Source: an uncultured Gemmatimonadota bacterium
GTDB lineage: Bacteria > Gemmatimonadota > Gemmatimonadetes > Gemmatimonadales > Gemmatimonadaceae
Direction of reading: 5' to 3'
NCBI GenBank assembly: GCA_902826615.1
Contig: CADEFN010000004.1
Location: 186,001 to 250,000 of the forward strand
DNA length: 64,000 nt
Below the pieces are notes generated by a model. The model was given only the letters and a program-made list of their open reading frames with translations. It made no database searches and was not told the DNA's origin. Shown here in pieces: positions 46,450 to 56,481 of the stretch (position 1 is its first letter; each line of letters starts with the position of its first letter). The translations under genes and the position numbers were made by a program.

Positions 46450-46576
46450 AGGTAGGGCTGCGGCCGATACCAGTTTGTCAGTTCGAAGTCATGACCCGGT
46501 GCCGAGAGGTGCCGGGTTGTTTGTTTTCCGGGGGTTGTTGCGCCGTCGCGGCGCGTGGCGTGGCGGCTGCAGGTGC
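46450..46576. other. Intergenic spacer after gyrB; no gene seen
   Basis: This short stretch lies between the gyrB stop and the first 21-bp repeat unit. It contains a modest inverted repeat (CCCGGTGCCG...) near 46495-46520 that might end gyrB transcription; no ORF or RNA gene is recognisable. Confidence 0.4.
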
Positions 46577-47290
46577 GCAACCGTCTCAGGGAGTGTGAGA
46601 GTCGGACGAGGCGCCGGTGCAACCAGCAGAGGCAAGTGGACAGTCAGCGGAGGCAGTTGCGCAACAGGCAGAGGCAGTGTGCAAGTCCGACGAGGCGACG
46701 GTGCAACCGGCTGAGGCAAGTGGACAGCCAGCCGAGGCAGTTGTGCAACCTGCAGAGGCAGTGTGCAAGTCAGACGAGGCACCGGTGCAACCAGCTGAGG
46801 CAAGTGGACGGTCAGCGGAGGCAGCTGTGCAACCGGCAGAGGCAGTGTGCAAGTCGGACGAGGCGACGGTGCAACCGGCTGAGGCAAGTGGACAGTCAGC
46901 CGAGGCAGTTGTGCAACCGGCAGAGGCGGTGGGAAAGTCAGCCGAGGCAGGTGTGCAACCGTCTGAGGCAGTGTGAAAGTCGGACGAGGCGCCGGTGCAA
47001 CCGGCTGAGGCAATGGGAAAGTCAGCGGAGGCAGGTGTGCAACCGGCAGAGGCAGTGTGCAAGTTGGACGAGGCGCCGGTGCAACCAGCAGAGGCAAGTG
47101 GACAGTCAGCGGAGGCAGGTGTGCAACCGGCAGAGGCAGTGTGCAAGTCGGACGAGGCGACGGTGCAACCGGCTGAGGCAAGTGGAAAGTCAGACGAGGC
47201 GACGGTGCAACCGGCTGAGGCATGTGGAAAGTCAGACGAGGCAGGTGTGCAACCGTCTGAGGCAGTGTGAAAGTCGGACGAGGCGACGGT
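46577..47290. repeat. 21-bp minisatellite, 34 units (17 x 42 bp)
   Basis: I count 34 consecutive 21-bp units, alternating two types: odd units GCAACC.GC.GAGGCA.TG. and even units A(C/A)AGTC.G.CGAGGC..... The alternation gives a 42-bp period with an 84-bp higher-order pattern. Because 21 is a multiple of 3, several frames stay open for hundreds of bases (heptapeptides such as VQPAEAS on the plus strand; Arg-rich and Pro-rich frames in others). None has a recognisable protein or a convincing start, so I treat the ORFs as by-products. Confidence 0.92.
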
Positions 47291-47746
47291 GCGGCCGCTT
47301 CAACCCCCTCCACCCCCTTCCGGCGCCCCGCACCGCTTGGGTAGGGGTGAGGCACTGTGAGTGGACATGCGAGTTTGCAGGCGATGTCGGCGGATATTGC
47401 TGCGTAGCGGTAACTGGCTTTGGGAGGGGATAGGCGGCAAGCGCAACGGCTCGCCTCGCCGCGTCAGCCCGCGGCTATGGCGGATATTGCGGCGAGGTGA
47501 GCTGGATATGCCGGGCGTAGGCTGGCCGGTGGGAAAAGGCCAACTTGTAGCGTGGCAATGGTTTGGCTTCACCGACCCGGAAGTGTGAGCGCCGGCAATA
47601 GGCGGCGGGGCGAGCGTGTTATGCACGCGGGTGCGGGGGCGATAGGCGGCGAGTGAAAGGGGCAAGCAGCCGCACTTTGGGGTGGCGCCTTGGGTGCCTA
47701 CGCAGCACAATACAAAGTTGGGCGGACTCGTCTTCAGCCATCCTTC
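47291..47746. other. Spacer with short repeats before the first cassette gene; possible degraded attC at 47538-47723
   Basis: No gene is recognised. Short motifs recur: GGCGGATATTGC twice and ATAGGCGGC three times. GTTGGGC (GTTRRRY consensus) at 47717-47723 lies 23 nt before the first cassette gene, and GGCCAAC at 47538-47544 could be its degenerate R'' partner (GGCCAACTTGTAG against GCCCAACTTTGTA). The inner stem is weak, so this is either a decayed attC/attI or chance. Confidence 0.35.
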
Positions 47747-48537: not shown

Positions 48538-48674
48538 GCCCAACAATGGGTTGCTGCAGACGCCGCGTTGGGGCTGGCGGAGTGGGCCGGCGCCTTTCAT
48601 CGTATAGCTGGGGCACGGCGCCGGCCCACTCCGCATTGTTTAGAGGCGGCGCAGCAGAACCCTAGTCGTTATGC
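48538..48674 (+). repeat. attC site 1
   Basis: R'' GCCCAAC (48538-48544) and R' GTTATGC (48668-48674) flank a 137-bp site. The outer arms (GGGTT-GCTGC against GCAGCAGAACCC) pair with bulges. The centre holds a perfect 18-bp inverted repeat, 48577-48594 against 48617-48634. Confidence 0.85.
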
Positions 48675-48706: not shown

Positions 48707-50464
48707 ATGAGAATCTCTGAGTTTGCCGTGCGCAACCAACGCGCCGTACGTCTCGCGGCGTGCGCGGAAGTACCGCGCGTAATGGTCATCACTGGTCCCA
48801 ACGGCTGCGGCAAGTCGACTCTGCTAAACGCACTACGAGGGATGGGATCTGGGACCGGACGTACCCTATACGTCAGTCCCCATCGCAATAGCCGGCGCCA
48901 GCAGGTGCAGATGCGGTATTTGGCCCAGACCCGCATTGAGATGAGTTCTCTTCTTTCGACGAATAGTCTTCCCGGGTTTGATGGCGTGAACATTCCGTCC
49001 CGGGAACGGGACGCCTGGAACTTCGATGAAGCGCAGAGTTTCCTGAAGTACAGTCTGTGTCAGATCGAAATCGATCGCCAAACAGCAATTGCGGATCGCT
49101 TTGACTCGACCGGCGCAGTGTTGCGCTCGGACATGCCAGATGTGTGGGCGCCACTCCGCGAGCTTGCACACAATCTCCTGCCTCACCTGCAGTTTCATAG
49201 AATTGACCTTACGAATAGAGACCAGATCAAGTGTCTCTGGCATGTTCACAGCAAGGATGTCCTCGTAGACATCGATGATCTCAGCTCTGGCGAGAAAGCG
49301 ATCATCCAGCTGTTCTTTCCCCTGATTGAGCACCAGGTGAACCGTCACCTTGCCTCGATGCGCGGTGCAGGTGAGGTAGTTGCGCGTGGGCATGTCGCCG
49401 TCCTGATGGATGAACCGGAACTCCACCTGCATCCGAATCTGCAAGCCAAGGTTCTCGACTACATTCGTGCACTCTCCTTGCGCGAGGATGTGCAATTCGT
49501 GCTGGCGACACACTCACCTTCGATGGTTGAGCAGGCCGTCAACGAGGAGCTGTATCTGCTGCGTCCCGCAGAGCTCACTCCAGACGACGGCAATCAACTC
49601 GTACGCATCGCCAGTGATGAGGAGCGGCTAGCAACCTTGCGAACCGTCTTCGGGTCGACGTCAAACGTGACCGCTCTTCGCACGGTTCTCGTCGTCGAGG
49701 GCCGGGGTGCCGACAGGACCAGTCGGCGGCCTACTGACGGACGGATCTACGGTTTCCTGAGCGACCAGTTTGGTCAGCTCACCGTATTGGCTGGCGGCGG
49801 CAAGGCGGAGTGTCAGCGGCTAGTACGGACTCTGAACGACCTCTTGGTCCCAATCGCTCCCCACCTCAAGGCGACGGCCCTATTGGATCGCGACACATTG
49901 GTAGATGAGCCGAGCAGCCCTGGGGTCATGTACCTGCCTGTATCAATGGTTGAGAACCTACTCGTTGATCCTCAGGTGATCTTCAAGGCAATGGAAACGG
50001 TGCGTCACAAAACGTCATTTCAGACACCGGACGACGTTGCCACCTCTATAGACTCGATCCTCGACGAACTAAGCGACCATGAGGTCAGTCGACGGGTGAA
50101 GGCTGCGGTGGCCAGCCGGACATTGCGCATACAGGACCCCGTCGCAGAGGCGCGTCGCCAGGTGGAGGAGTTCGCCGCGGCCGTCGTATCCGAGCTATCG
50201 CAAGAGTACTTCGAGAGGATCGCAGGGCAGGCATCTGAAGCTGTAGCTGGCCTGAAGGCCGCAGTTCGAAGGCGTGAGTTGTACGATGGGAAGAGGATCA
50301 TCGATGAGTTCTTCAAGCGCCACCTTCACGACTCCGGGATGTCAAAGGAAGTGTTCGTCTACTTGTGCGCCAAGGAAGCGAGCTCGCGACACTCCGTAGC
50401 GCAGTTCATCCAAGCGCTGTTCACTACCCTCGGTATCCTGCCTCCTCAACCGGGTGCGGCATAA
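48707..50464 (+). CDS. Cassette gene 2: fused AAA ATPase-DUF4435 (TOPRIM-like) protein, PARIS/OLD-like defence candidate
   Basis: The 585-residue protein has an N-terminal ABC-type AAA ATPase: Walker A 'ITGPNGCGKSTLLNAL' near residue 30, signature 'DDLSSGEKAIIQLFF', Walker B with following His 'VAVLMDEPELHLHPNLQAKV', and 'VLATHSPSMVEQ'. The C-terminal half (from about residue 330) reads as DUF4435/TOPRIM: 'TVLVVEGRGADR', 'ALLDRDTLVDE' and 'VSMVENLLVDP'. Separate proteins of these two kinds form the PARIS anti-phage system (AriA ATPase and AriB DUF4435 effector), and fused versions exist. The stop TAA lies inside the R'' box of attC2. OLD-type nucleases are an alternative. Confidence 0.75.
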   Translation: MRISEFAVRNQRAVRLAACAEVPRVMVITGPNGCGKSTLLNALRGMGSGTGRTLYVSPHRNSRRQQVQMRYLAQTRIEMSSLLSTNSLPGFDGVNIPSRERDAWNFDEAQSFLKYSLCQIEIDRQTAIADRFDSTGAVLRSDMPDVWAPLRELAHNLLPHLQFHRIDLTNRDQIKCLWHVHSKDVLVDIDDLSSGEKAIIQLFFPLIEHQVNRHLASMRGAGEVVARGHVAVLMDEPELHLHPNLQAKVLDYIRALSLREDVQFVLATHSPSMVEQAVNEELYLLRPAELTPDDGNQLVRIASDEERLATLRTVFGSTSNVTALRTVLVVEGRGADRTSRRPTDGRIYGFLSDQFGQLTVLAGGGKAECQRLVRTLNDLLVPIAPHLKATALLDRDTLVDEPSSPGVMYLPVSMVENLLVDPQVIFKAMETVRHKTSFQTPDDVATSIDSILDELSDHEVSRRVKAAVASRTLRIQDPVAEARRQVEEFAAAVVSELSQEYFERIAGQASEAVAGLKAAVRRRELYDGKRIIDEFFKRHLHDSGMSKEVFVYLCAKEASSRHSVAQFIQALFTTLGILPPQPGAA

Positions 50465-50554
50465 CAACACGTTGCAGTTGACAAGCGATCTAATGTCTGC
50501 TCGCTACGCTCGCCCTTTTCTGGTTCGCTTGCAACTGAACGTGGGACGTTAGGC
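50459..50554 (+). repeat. attC site 2
   Basis: R'' GCATAAC (50459-50465) and R' GTTAGGC (50548-50554) bound a 96-bp site. The arms CACGTTGCAGTTGACAAGCGA and TCGCTTGCAACTGAACGTG pair with single extrahelical bases, the attC strand-selection feature. The preceding gene ends inside R''. Confidence 0.9.
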
Positions 50555-51244: not shown

Positions 51245-51349
51245 GCCTAACAACACGTTGCTGCCGCCAAACGCGAGCACTTGTGGAAGCGGCGGCTACG
51301 CCGCCACATTCAGTTAATAGCGTTTGCAGCAGAACGTGGAACGTTAGGC
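51245..51349 (+). repeat. attC site 3
   Basis: R'' GCCTAAC (51245-51251) and R' GTTAGGC (51343-51349) are exact complements. Arms CACGTTGCTGC and GCAGCAGAACGTG pair with a bulge, and an inner GGCGGC/GCCGCC stem tops a 105-bp site. This is the cleanest attC in the window. Confidence 0.93.
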
Positions 51350-52133: not shown

Positions 52134-52263
52134 GCCTTACATAGCGTTGCACTTGTCGGGCTAATGAGGCTAGCCAACCCGCCCGGGCCGCGGTAGAATG
52201 GGAGGGAGGCGGCCCGGGCGGGTCGGCTTGTATTCAGATAGCCCGCAAGTGAACGCAAACGTT
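52134..52263 (+). repeat. attC site 4, left part, interrupted by IS insertion
   Basis: R'' is a variant GCCTTAC (52134-52140). Arms GCGTTGCACTTG and CAAGTGAACGC pair with bulges, and the centre is a perfect 15-bp repeat (52177-52191 against 52209-52223). The site stops at ...AAACGTT at 52263, where the IS begins; the missing R' remainder is at 54037-54043 (GTTAGGC). Confidence 0.8.
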
Positions 52264-54035
52264 CTAGGTGTAGAAAAAGCCAGTTGTAGACCGTGCACGC
52301 GCGCGGGCGTTGCACCGAGCGCGTTCGGAGGAGCATCGCTTGTTTGGGGGCCTGGCGGAGGGCAGTGAGATCGCCTGGGGCGCGACGCGAGTGGCTGGGC
52401 TTGCCGTTAGGCGGCGTAACCGTGGTGGGCGAGCTTTTCGATGTTGTGCACCAAGCAGAAGAGCCGCCACTGCACCTCGACCTTGCGCCGGCTCCGCAGC
52501 GTGAAGCGGTCGAGCCGCTTGTTGTGCCGCAGATTCGCAAACACGGGCTCCACCGTGCCGAAGCGCTCGGCATAGCGCGCCCGTTCAGCCGGCTGATCAA
52601 TCCGCCGCTTCATCCGCGCGGTGCGGGTCTCGGGCGCCGGGGTCGCTCGACCGCGGAAGAAGGCCACCTGCCGCGGCGTCGCCTGGGTCGGATCCCGCAG
52701 ACACTGGGCGCGGAGCGGACACGGCAGACAGTCGCGCTTGGTGCCGTGGAACTGTTCGGAGACAAACCCGCGCGTGATGTTCGCCTGACCCTTCCGATAG
52801 AGCGACTTGCCCGCCGGGCAGACACACGTCCGCGCGACCGGATCATACTGAAAGTCGCTCGGCTGAAAGCGGCGCGGCCCCTCCGGTGGCGCCGCCTTGT
52901 CATGCAGCGGATCCTTGGTCGTGTGGTGCGCCGCCTGCGTGGCAAAGCGTTCGTCCCGCCGCCGCAACTCGCTGTCGGCAATCAGGGCGTCGACTCCGCG
53001 CTGCTCCAGCGCGGTGAGGTTCGCCTCGCTATGGTAGCCCGCATCCGCGGTGACCAGCGAGTGCGGCGCCAGCACCGGCGCCAAGGCGGTCACGATCGGC
53101 ACGAGCAGCTCGTGCTCCGAGCCCGTGCCATGCGCTTCCGCCACACAAATGATTTGATGCTTAGCGTCGACCGCCGCGACACCGGTATAGCCCTGAATCA
53201 CGCCCTTCCCAGTGGCCATCTTCGCACTCTCGTTGTCCGTGCGATTGCTTTTGCGCACCGCCCCGGTAGGCCCGCGGCGGTCCTCCGGATGCGCCGCCAG
53301 CCAGGCGCGCAGCTGCGTGGCATCCCGCTGCAACCGTCCGAGCCGCGTCGTCTCCTTCGCCGACAGGCTGGGCTCGACCGGCAATGCATCGGTCGCGCGA
53401 TGCCGGGCCACCATCGCGGCGGCGGCCGCCTCCAGTTTGTCCGCCTGTCGTTCGAACTCGGCGCGCGTCCCGCTCCGCTGCTTGGCCGCGTTGCTCGGCA
53501 GCTTGACCCCATCGATGGCGAACATCTCCCGGCCGATCAGCCCCTGCTGGCCACAGATCGCGAGCACGGCGGCAAAGACGCGGGCAATGTCGTCCCCGAG
53601 GGTGCTGACAAAGTGCGCGATGGTGGTGAAGTGCGGCGCCCGGTCGCCACAGAGCGCGATGAAGGTGACATGCTCCTCACAGACCCGCGCGATGCCCCGG
53701 CTCGAGACGATCCCCCGCGCGTACGCGACCAGCACGACCTGCAGCAGCGTGGCCGGCGGATAGGCGGGTGCCCCCGTCGTGTCGTTCTTGAAGCGCGCGT
53801 CGAAGTGGGACAGGTCGATCGCCCCGGTCAGCAAATGATGCACGGCATGTTCGAAGGTGCCCGGCAGCAGCTGCTTGGCGAGATCGACGGGCAGGAAGCG
53901 GGGCTGCGTGTCGATGTGTTTGTAGCGGGCCATTCAGAGACCTCCTCGACGGGGGAGCTGCCACACCCTACGTTCAAGGACCACCCTGCAAAGTCTCGGC
54001 CGGACGCGAGGGCCCGCGGGGTTTTTCTACACCTT
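52264..54035 (-). mobile_element. Complete IS1182-family insertion sequence inside attC4
   Basis: The element is about 1772 bp, with inverted ends GGTGTAGAAAAA (52267-52278) and TTTTTCTACACC (54022-54033). It encodes one DDE transposase on the minus strand. CGTT is present at both junctions (52260-52263 and 54036-54039), compatible with a 3-4 bp target duplication. Removing the element restores ...AAACGTTAGGC, an intact R' box. The exact tip of each end is uncertain by a few bases. Confidence 0.85.
52407..53933 (-). CDS. IS1182-family DDE transposase
   Basis: The 508-residue transposase begins 'MARYKHIDTQPRFLPVDLAK' and has the IS1182 arrangement. The N-terminal DUF772-like region includes 'VLVAYARGIVSSRGIARVCE', the first Asp is in 'GREMFAIDGVKLPSNAAK', the second in 'SLVTADAGYHSEANLTA', and the Glu in 'ERFGTVEPVFANLRHNKRLD'. 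Cys pairs in 'CVCPAGKSLYRK' and 'CLPCPLRAQC' form the zinc-ribbon-like insert. It is full length and looks active. It is transcribed against the cassettes. Confidence 0.92.
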   Translation of the reverse strand: MARYKHIDTQPRFLPVDLAKQLLPGTFEHAVHHLLTGAIDLSHFDARFKNDTTGAPAYPPATLLQVVLVAYARGIVSSRGIARVCEEHVTFIALCGDRAPHFTTIAHFVSTLGDDIARVFAAVLAICGQQGLIGREMFAIDGVKLPSNAAKQRSGTRAEFERQADKLEAAAAAMVARHRATDALPVEPSLSAKETTRLGRLQRDATQLRAWLAAHPEDRRGPTGAVRKSNRTDNESAKMATGKGVIQGYTGVAAVDAKHQIICVAEAHGTGSEHELLVPIVTALAPVLAPHSLVTADAGYHSEANLTALEQRGVDALIADSELRRRDERFATQAAHHTTKDPLHDKAAPPEGPRRFQPSDFQYDPVARTCVCPAGKSLYRKGQANITRGFVSEQFHGTKRDCLPCPLRAQCLRDPTQATPRQVAFFRGRATPAPETRTARMKRRIDQPAERARYAERFGTVEPVFANLRHNKRLDRFTLRSRRKVEVQWRLFCLVHNIEKLAHHGYAA

Positions 54036-54036
54036 C

Positions 54037-54043
54037 GTTAGGC
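54037..54043 (+). repeat. attC4 R' remainder after the IS
   Basis: GTTAGGC directly follows the IS right end. It completes attC4 and marks the cassette boundary 20 nt before the beta-propeller gene. Confidence 0.75.
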
Positions 54044-55038: not shown

Positions 55039-55180
55039 GCCTAACAACACGTTGCACTTGGCGGACCCTTGGTTAGGGTCTGGCTGTCCCGCCCGGGCCG
55101 TGGTAGACTATTCAAGGAGCGGCCCGGGCGGGACAGCCTTTTGTTTATCGGGTCCGCAAGTGAACGTGAAAACGTTGGGC
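55039..55180 (+). repeat. attC site 5
   Basis: R'' GCCTAAC (55039-55045) and R' GTTGGGC (55174-55180) bound 142 bp. Arms CACGTTGCACTTG...CGGACCC and GGGTCCGCAAGTGAACGTG pair with bulges. The centre is a perfect 19-bp repeat (55082-55100 against 55120-55138) sharing CCCGCCCGGGCCG with attC4 and attC8. Confidence 0.92.
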
Positions 55181-55202: not shown

Positions 55203-55967
55203 GTGCCGAATCTCCAAACGAAGCACCTGGCCGCGTCACTCGATGCAGAGGAAGCCTTGCTTCCGTTCATTCCGCACCTGTTGCAGGACCTCTGGTCGCT
55301 CGGGTTCTCCCCAGAGGCTGCTCTGCGGCTTCTGGAAAGGAATGTCCATGAGGCTCCGTGGCGCATGGTGGATCTCGGATGCGGCAAAGGAGCGCTCCTG
55401 ATCCACCTCGCGAAAAGCTTTGGCTGGCACGGACGAGGCGTCGATCTCGTACCGGAGTTCATTGCGGAGGCTCGCAGGTACGCCAGTGAATGGGGGGTCG
55501 CTGACGCGCTCGACTTTGAGGTCAAGGACATGGGGAAAGAGTTGGCCGATGGCGGAGAATGGAACCTCATCCTCTTCGGCTTCGACTCCGAGGCGCTTGG
55601 CGAACTTCCAGAGGCACTTGCACGCATCGCAGGGCGTGTCGCACTGTCAGGGCTTCTTCTGGTCGATCTTGCATGGGCGCGGTCAGGACGCTCTGTCGAT
55701 TTACCTTCCGAAGCGCGAGTGCTCGAGAGCGCTCATGCGGCGGGACTCCGGTTGGTCGATCGGGAGACGCTGGATCCCGCCTGGGTGACCACCGAAGGGT
55801 CGCGGCATCTTGAGCTGATCCGTGGCCGAGCTACGGAACTTGCCATAAGGTACCCGGAACATTCGGCGGCATTCGAGGCGTATGTGGCGGAGCAGGAAGC
55901 GGAGAACCGGATACTCAGCCAGGAGGCACACTGCGGGTATCTGTTGTTTGCTCGAGCGGAGCGCTAG
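55203..55967 (+). CDS. Cassette gene 6: class I SAM-dependent methyltransferase
   Basis: The GTG start at 55203 gives 254 residues. SAM motif I is 'MVDLGCGKGALLIHLAKSFG', followed by 'GVDLVPEFIAEARRYASEWG' (acidic motif II) and 'DMGKELADGGEWNLILFGFD'. This is a Rossmann methyltransferase of the UbiE/small-molecule type. The late 'ESAHAAGLRLVDRETLDPAW' resembles the C-terminal part of such enzymes. The substrate is unknown. It starts 23 nt after attC5 and ends 18 nt before attC6. Confidence 0.85.
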   Translation: MPNLQTKHLAASLDAEEALLPFIPHLLQDLWSLGFSPEAALRLLERNVHEAPWRMVDLGCGKGALLIHLAKSFGWHGRGVDLVPEFIAEARRYASEWGVADALDFEVKDMGKELADGGEWNLILFGFDSEALGELPEALARIAGRVALSGLLLVDLAWARSGRSVDLPSEARVLESAHAAGLRLVDRETLDPAWVTTEGSRHLELIRGRATELAIRYPEHSAAFEAYVAEQEAENRILSQEAHCGYLLFARAER

Positions 55968-55984
55968 GCGAGGCGAGGTGGTTG

Positions 55985-56043
55985 GTCCAACAACAGCATG
56001 CAGCGGACGGCGCTTCGCACCGCCGCTCATGGTGAGGTTAGGT
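55985..56043 (+). repeat. attC site 6 (59 bp)
   Basis: R'' GTCCAAC (55985-55991) and R' GTTAGGT (56037-56043) bound exactly 59 bp, the classical '59-base element' length. CATGCAGCGG pairs with CCGCTCATG with an extra base, around a short GGCG/CGCC stem. Confidence 0.85.
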
Positions 56044-56076
56044 GGACGAGGCCAAGACTGAATCAAAGGTGAGTCG

Positions 56077-56481
56077 TTCGGCAGTTTGACCCCATAGATG
56101 GCGAACATCTCCTGGCCGATCAGCCCCTGCTGGTCACAGATGGCCAGCACCGCCGCGAAGACGGGGGCGAGGGCGTCGCCGATGCGATGCGAGCAGTGAT
56201 GCGGGGCGCGGCTCCGATCGACGAGTCCGCGTCGGCACTCTTCCTCAAAGCGCGCCAGACGCTTGTAGCCGACGCGCCGGCAGATGCCGAAGCGTGCGCA
56301 CAGCTCGGCCATTGTGAAGCGGTCGCTCCGCGTGCCCTGAATGAAACGCAAGGGTTCGTCCATGGGTGCAGTCTCCAATCAGGGCATCGACGGCCTCGCT
56401 GAGTCGAGTCACGTCGTGCAGTTTGGAAGGAGTGTTACCCATGTTCCCGGACTACTCTGTTACCTATGTCCCCGACTGTAC
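56077..56481 (-). pseudogene. Chimeric IS remnant: IS481-type 5' end joined to an IS1182 fragment
   Basis: Two broken insertion sequences are fused. On the minus strand, from about 56378, the frame encodes an IS481-type N-terminus ('RFTMAELCARFGICRRVGYK', 'LARFEEECRRGLVDRSRAPH') as far as about 56185. It then continues in frame into about 100 nt closely similar to 53496-53600 of the complete IS1182 ('FAAVLAICDQQGLIGQEMFA'). The end repeats TGTTACCCATGTTCCCGGAC and TGTTACCTATGTCCCCGACT at 56433-56476 fit an IS481 terminus. The reading frame runs on to 55701, overlapping the methyltransferase; no function is expected. Confidence 0.75.

Follow-up and report, generated by a model that had tools for sequence, protein, structure and literature searches.

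The 64,000 nucleotides of contig CADEFN010000004.1 analyzed here (the window), from an uncultured Gemmatimonadota bacterium, carry an intact insertion sequence (IS) of the IS1182 family lodged inside an integron attC site. The element is 1773 bp long (52264..54036, minus strand), with ends that are read directly and recur in relatives, and an intact open reading frame within it (52407..53933, minus strand) encodes a transposase of 508 amino acids. This protein scores above the curated NCBIfam cut-off for IS1182 (NF033551.1, 272.7 bits against 270), matches the Pfam models DDE_Tnp_1_6, DUF772, and DDE_Tnp_1, and has D141, D297, and E462, invariant across the aligned rows, as its DDE residues. 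These features, with terminal inverted repeats and a short direct repeat, identify the element as a member of IS1182, a family with direct repeats of 2 to 60 bp in the literature (PMC7335449).

The element reads CTAGGTGTAGAAAAAGCC...GGGGTTTTTCTACACCTTC, and its inverted ends (GGTGTAGAAAAA...TTTTTCTACACC) lie between AAACGTT and GTTAGGC. The left flank, ...GTGAACGCAAACGTT, stops at 52263; the right flank, GTTAGGC, occupies 54037-54043. On the plus strand, one inverted-repeat end adjoins the attC body (CTAGGTGTAGAAAAAGCC, 52264..52281) and the other, also found in relatives, adjoins the next cassette (GGGGTTTTTCTACACCTTC, 54018..54036). Termini in relatives follow GAG(G/C)CTGTAG...CTACAGC.TC, and the window copy has drifted at one of them, the outermost three bases beside the attC body having departed from the family's GA[GAC]. 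A GTT stands at each side (52261..52263 and 54037..54039, plus strand), as it does in relatives. Each is preceded by C, so the duplication in this copy can be read as GTT (3 bp) or as CGTT (4 bp).

Left of the element lies the body of the attC (52134..52263, plus strand), made up of the R'' box GCCTTAC, L'', the loop, L', and the GTT of R'. The rest of the R' box, AGGC (54040..54043, plus strand, read directly), is parted from its own attC by the element. Joining the flanks minus one GTT gives GCCTTAC(52134)-ATAGCGTT-G-CACTTG-T-CGGGCT...AGCCCG-CAAGTG-AACG-CAAAC-GTTAGGC, an attC with R''/R' and L''/L' pairing, one mismatch in the R'' box, and two extrahelical bases that bulge on the L'' side at a spacing of 6 bp. 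This restored site scores 22 on an attC template (see below), a value reached by 0 of 2748 random GTT sites (top score 21; p = 0.0004). A preliminary description of the locus had placed an IS1182-family element exactly at the attC crossover and held that its removal restores a normal R' box, GTTAGGC; both statements are borne out.

Insertion sites of related copies

Copies in other genomes were collected by transposase similarity alone (approximately 42-89% identity). Searching one genome per species with nothing but the transposase yields 78 loci at 45-71% identity, and further copies come from 395 genomes of the same phylum plus 20 chosen genomes. Hosts include Gemmatimonadota, Pseudomonadota, Thermodesulfobacteriota, and others; a scan of viral contigs shows no relatives. 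Almost all copies with readable ends adjoin an attC-type core, and on the attC top strand they follow the pattern ...CGTT/GA[GAC]GCTGTAGAAAAA...TTTTTCTACAGC[CGT]TC/GTTR..., with slashes at the element boundaries. Targeting of attC extends to copies of only about 42% identity, represented by one from Pseudoalteromonas (L149). A second, decayed copy in the source genome, on contig C6, likewise sits at an attC R' box (TAGCCCGCAAGTGAACGCGGGCGTT).

GTT is present at both sides in 65 of the 70 copies for which both ends are available, and the two triplets are equal in 66. C precedes the left GTT in 68 of the 70, but the exceptions are instructive: L078 and L104 have another base there although the element ends in C as usual, and it is the last base of the element that differs in L072 and L073. 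These four copies contradict a 4-bp CGTT duplication, which has been set aside; a duplicated GTT of 3 bp fits best, with C belonging to the element end. The preliminary description had allowed for 3 or 4 bp; the duplicated sequence proves to be the R' triplet. In L105, the right GTT is followed directly by an apparent second element end (GAATCTGTAGGAAAAGG), which suggests repeated insertion at one attC.

Whether these targets are attC sites in the structural sense was scored with a template that combines R''/R' pairing, the L arms, and a pair of extrahelical bases on the R'' side with 6 bp between them, using random GTTs within the same loci as controls. (Early scoring schemes, whose null was too high, gave way to this template; a covariance model from MAFFT alignments misaligned the arms and was dropped.) Among 65 reconstructed empty sites, 47 reach p<0.05 and 36 reach p<0.01 (Mann-Whitney p=5e-24 against the random GTTs). 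A second measure, arm-pairing energy, also places targets below random GTTs of the same loci (p=3e-13). Sites in related genomes, which the preliminary description had proposed to survey, are not random, and those displayed keep the classical attC layout despite many different sequences. The tests treat loci as independent although they share transposase kinship; no pair of 64 has both flanks in common.

A short core cannot by itself explain this targeting. Among sites of CGTT-R type, 35 of 58 targets score at least 18 on the template, against 58 of 668 others in the same loci, some of the latter being true attCs (odds ratio 16, p=1e-19). None of the 126 CGTT-R core sites that the window has outside the array scores that high.

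Integrase recombination takes place only at L'-R', and an extrahelical base marks L'' (PMC2727003). Placing the bulges of the template on the upstream (R'') arm gives a better score than the mirror-image template at all 36 strong sites; the extrahelical bases therefore lie opposite the insertion, which falls in R', the crossover box, and not in R''. Orientation is equally regular. In the lineage of the window copy, the transposase gene runs opposite to the attC top strand; in the lineages from Nitrosomonas, Aromatoleum, Thiothrix, and desulfo-bacteria, it runs along that strand. On a tree of 81 proteins, orientation changes twice, against roughly 26 times when shuffled. L073 is the exception within the tree, and the decayed copy L151, which is not among the 81, would add one change. 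Moreover, L058 and L092 share the triplet but not the orientation of L072, with attCs 97-100% alike over 40 nt. Since orientation tracks the transposase lineage and like attCs are hit both ways, it is a property of the element rather than of its target.

Taken together, a branch of IS1182 very probably selects integron attC sites, inserts at the R' crossover triplet, and duplicates the 3-bp GTT while leaving the attC arms in place. Sequence comparison establishes the position of the target, the length of the duplication, the choice of R' over R'', and the link between orientation and lineage. Support is comparative throughout, and many loci come from metagenome-assembled genomes, both of which count against this reading.

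Relatives outside the branch behave differently. Two genomes of the same class (G058 and G017) carry copies with about 30% identity that are inserted at CTAG, with CTAG duplicated, and have GAG...CTC termini as in the branch, and plasmid-borne members at 25-28% identity, ISPpu20 included, lie between the arms of palindromes. Three such remote members occupy Pseudomonas plasmids (L158, L159, and L160); L159, for example, has AAAATGGGCGCCATGCA on one side and TGCATGGGCGCCCATTTT on the other. With CTAG or palindromes as outgroup targets, attC specificity looks like a derived specialization. One notion, that the element ends evolved to mimic R' (GTT/GAG fits GTTRRR), was rejected as an adaptation; the remote CTAG inserters have identical GAG...CTC ends.

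Recognition of the target site

The preliminary description had suggested that the transposase favors either folded attC or its R' sequence. A preference for attC and R' is supported. Since thousands of sites per genome would match the core by itself, the transposase should also read something further, be it the stem or a weak, extended signal in L'. We consider recognition of the hairpin slightly the better guess. The transposase would recognize a short CGTTR core plus the foot of an attC stem that is extruded or single-stranded, a specialization of the way other IS1182 members target palindromes. Docking on the stem foot, or on the L'-R' half-site, would be followed by a 3-bp staggered insertion, with each lineage presenting its two ends to the asymmetric site in a fixed orientation. 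The full picture, in which a branch of DDE transposases recognizes the folded attC stem, integrates at its foot (the integrase crossover) with lineage-fixed polarity, and has relatives that use other palindromes, stands at about even chances.

The strongest competitor, a plausible account if a less probable one, is that the transposase recognizes L'-R' as a linear half-site in double-stranded form (approximately GCC-NN-CTTAA-NN-ACGTTRRRY), the attC fold being irrelevant. About 12 of the 65 targets have no detectable hairpin partner arm, part of them with an L'-like arm beside the core; this keeps the linear half-site standing as a reading, and a hairpin may be dispensable. Information content amounts to about 10.7 bits in the core and about 17 over the entire gapless target, the latter perhaps nearly enough for linear recognition, and the base preceding GTT differs between R' and R'', so that sequence could tell the boxes apart. 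The CGTTR core is strong and conservation of L' weak. Against the linear half-site, the paired architecture persists across widely differing L' sequences, core-like sites elsewhere in the same loci go unused, and distant members of the family occupy palindromes whose sequences are unrelated, both in our own loci and in the literature (PMC5678879).

Other explanations dispense with target choice by the transposase, and each fares poorly. The duplicated triplet is the exact crossover triplet of the integrase IntI, and integrated cassettes are likewise flanked by GTT, so a circular form with GTT between its ends might have been recombined at G^TT like a cassette. Such placement by the integron integrase is improbable: the element has no internal attC, no integrase gene is found near the window, the catalytic DDE residues are kept in all rows, two lineages show opposite orientations, and the outgroup with the same GAG...CTC termini duplicates CTAG. 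Less probable still is the spread of a single ancestral attC insertion by cassette exchange, even though a few copies do have near-identical attCs followed by different cassettes (L058 and L092; L059 and L065; L079 and L080). For most copies this hitchhiking is already contradicted, as most attCs and all following sequences differ, transposases can be as little as 42-57% alike, and elements of either orientation occupy one and the same type of attC (L058 and L072). Least probable of all is broad insertion followed by selective loss of copies outside silent cassette arrays. Integron arrays are generally known to tolerate insertions, but survival would not choose one base position in attC, R' over R'', or a lineage-fixed orientation, and the copies scattered within cassettes that it predicts are absent among the 70.

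The surrounding cassette array

Four intact attCs, all in the same orientation, flank the split site on both sides (all plus strand). One has its R' box at 48668..48674 (template score 20). Two others, at 50459..50554 (R' at 50548) and 51245..51349 (R' at 51343), each score 22 and correspond to repeats D3 and D6, and the fourth, at 55039..55180 (R' at 55174), scores 21 and corresponds to repeats D2 and D3. The integron integrase genes of the source genome are on contigs C2 and C16, and the stretch in the window is therefore a cluster of attCs with no integrase close by.

Just before the array, at 46489-47433, is a long low-complexity repeat stretch with several frames open on both strands (repeats of QPAEASGQ type). 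The next cassette region (55704-56378) holds mobile-element remnants, an IS481-like start fused to a decayed fragment (56073-56182) with 85% identity to the IS1182 transposase gene of the window. Contigs C2 and C6 of the source genome (G000) start inside fragments of related elements (L006, L002, and L164), and with the copy on C6 abutting an attC, it would appear that such arrays break assembly.

Insertion would give the element landing sites between cassettes. It also separates the R' box of the integron from the next cassette, so that excision of neighboring cassettes is probably altered, and with it the set of cassettes the integron can move. After insertion the attC side mostly reads GTTGAG, GTTGAA, or GTTGAC (GTTCTAG in the drifted window copy). 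These junctions are near GTTRRR, and the upstream attC may thus remain partly usable. The element ends can serve as a sequence marker for integron arrays on contigs that lack an integrase gene.

Relation to known systems

The attC-specialized branch of IS1182 is real and general. With this branch, which spans several phyla, one more unrelated type of mobile element joins IS1111-attC elements and group IIC-attC introns in converging on attC as a target. The open-licence literature yielded no description of an IS1182 branch at attC or of DDE elements at attC, a search with ISfinder outside its scope and by which priority is not established.

Within its own family, the window element shares with IS1272 and ISPpu20 the transposase family, the DDE residues, the end sequence (GAG..CTGT.AAAA), and a preference for palindromes. 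Some IS1182 members target palindromes, and IS1272 replaces stem-loops (PMC5678879, PMC4923244). The attC-specific branch most likely arose from this preference. The outcomes are distinct: IS1272 replaces the stem-loop without duplication, whereas members of the attC branch retain the attC, enter at the foot of its stem, and duplicate GTT. Its position at the R' triplet also sets it apart from the ISPpu20-like copies between palindrome arms and the G058 and G017 copies at CTAG. The poorly explained palindrome targeting of IS1182 is thereby tied to a well-studied hairpin in which extrahelical bases, central spacer, and R and L boxes can be altered separately. If the folded stem is what is recognized, this would be a structure-guided DDE insertion sequence, and hairpin recognition in IS1182 would become directly testable.

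The IS1111-attC group (ISKpn4, ISPst6, and ISPa25) likewise consists of insertion sequences targeting one end of attC (PMC11187229), but there is no kinship. In IS1111 elements, a seekRNA encoded in a non-coding region guides a DEDD transposase, while the window element has terminal inverted repeats and a transposase that matches DDE models only. Group IIC-attC introns are also mobile elements that prefer attC, with the hairpin serving in recognition. They are retroelements, an intron RNA with a reverse transcriptase, whose insertion point is in R'', within the bottom-strand TTGT/T (PMC7923331); the window shows no intron family at threshold in an Rfam scan, and its element is a DNA transposon, encoding a transposase and seated at R'.
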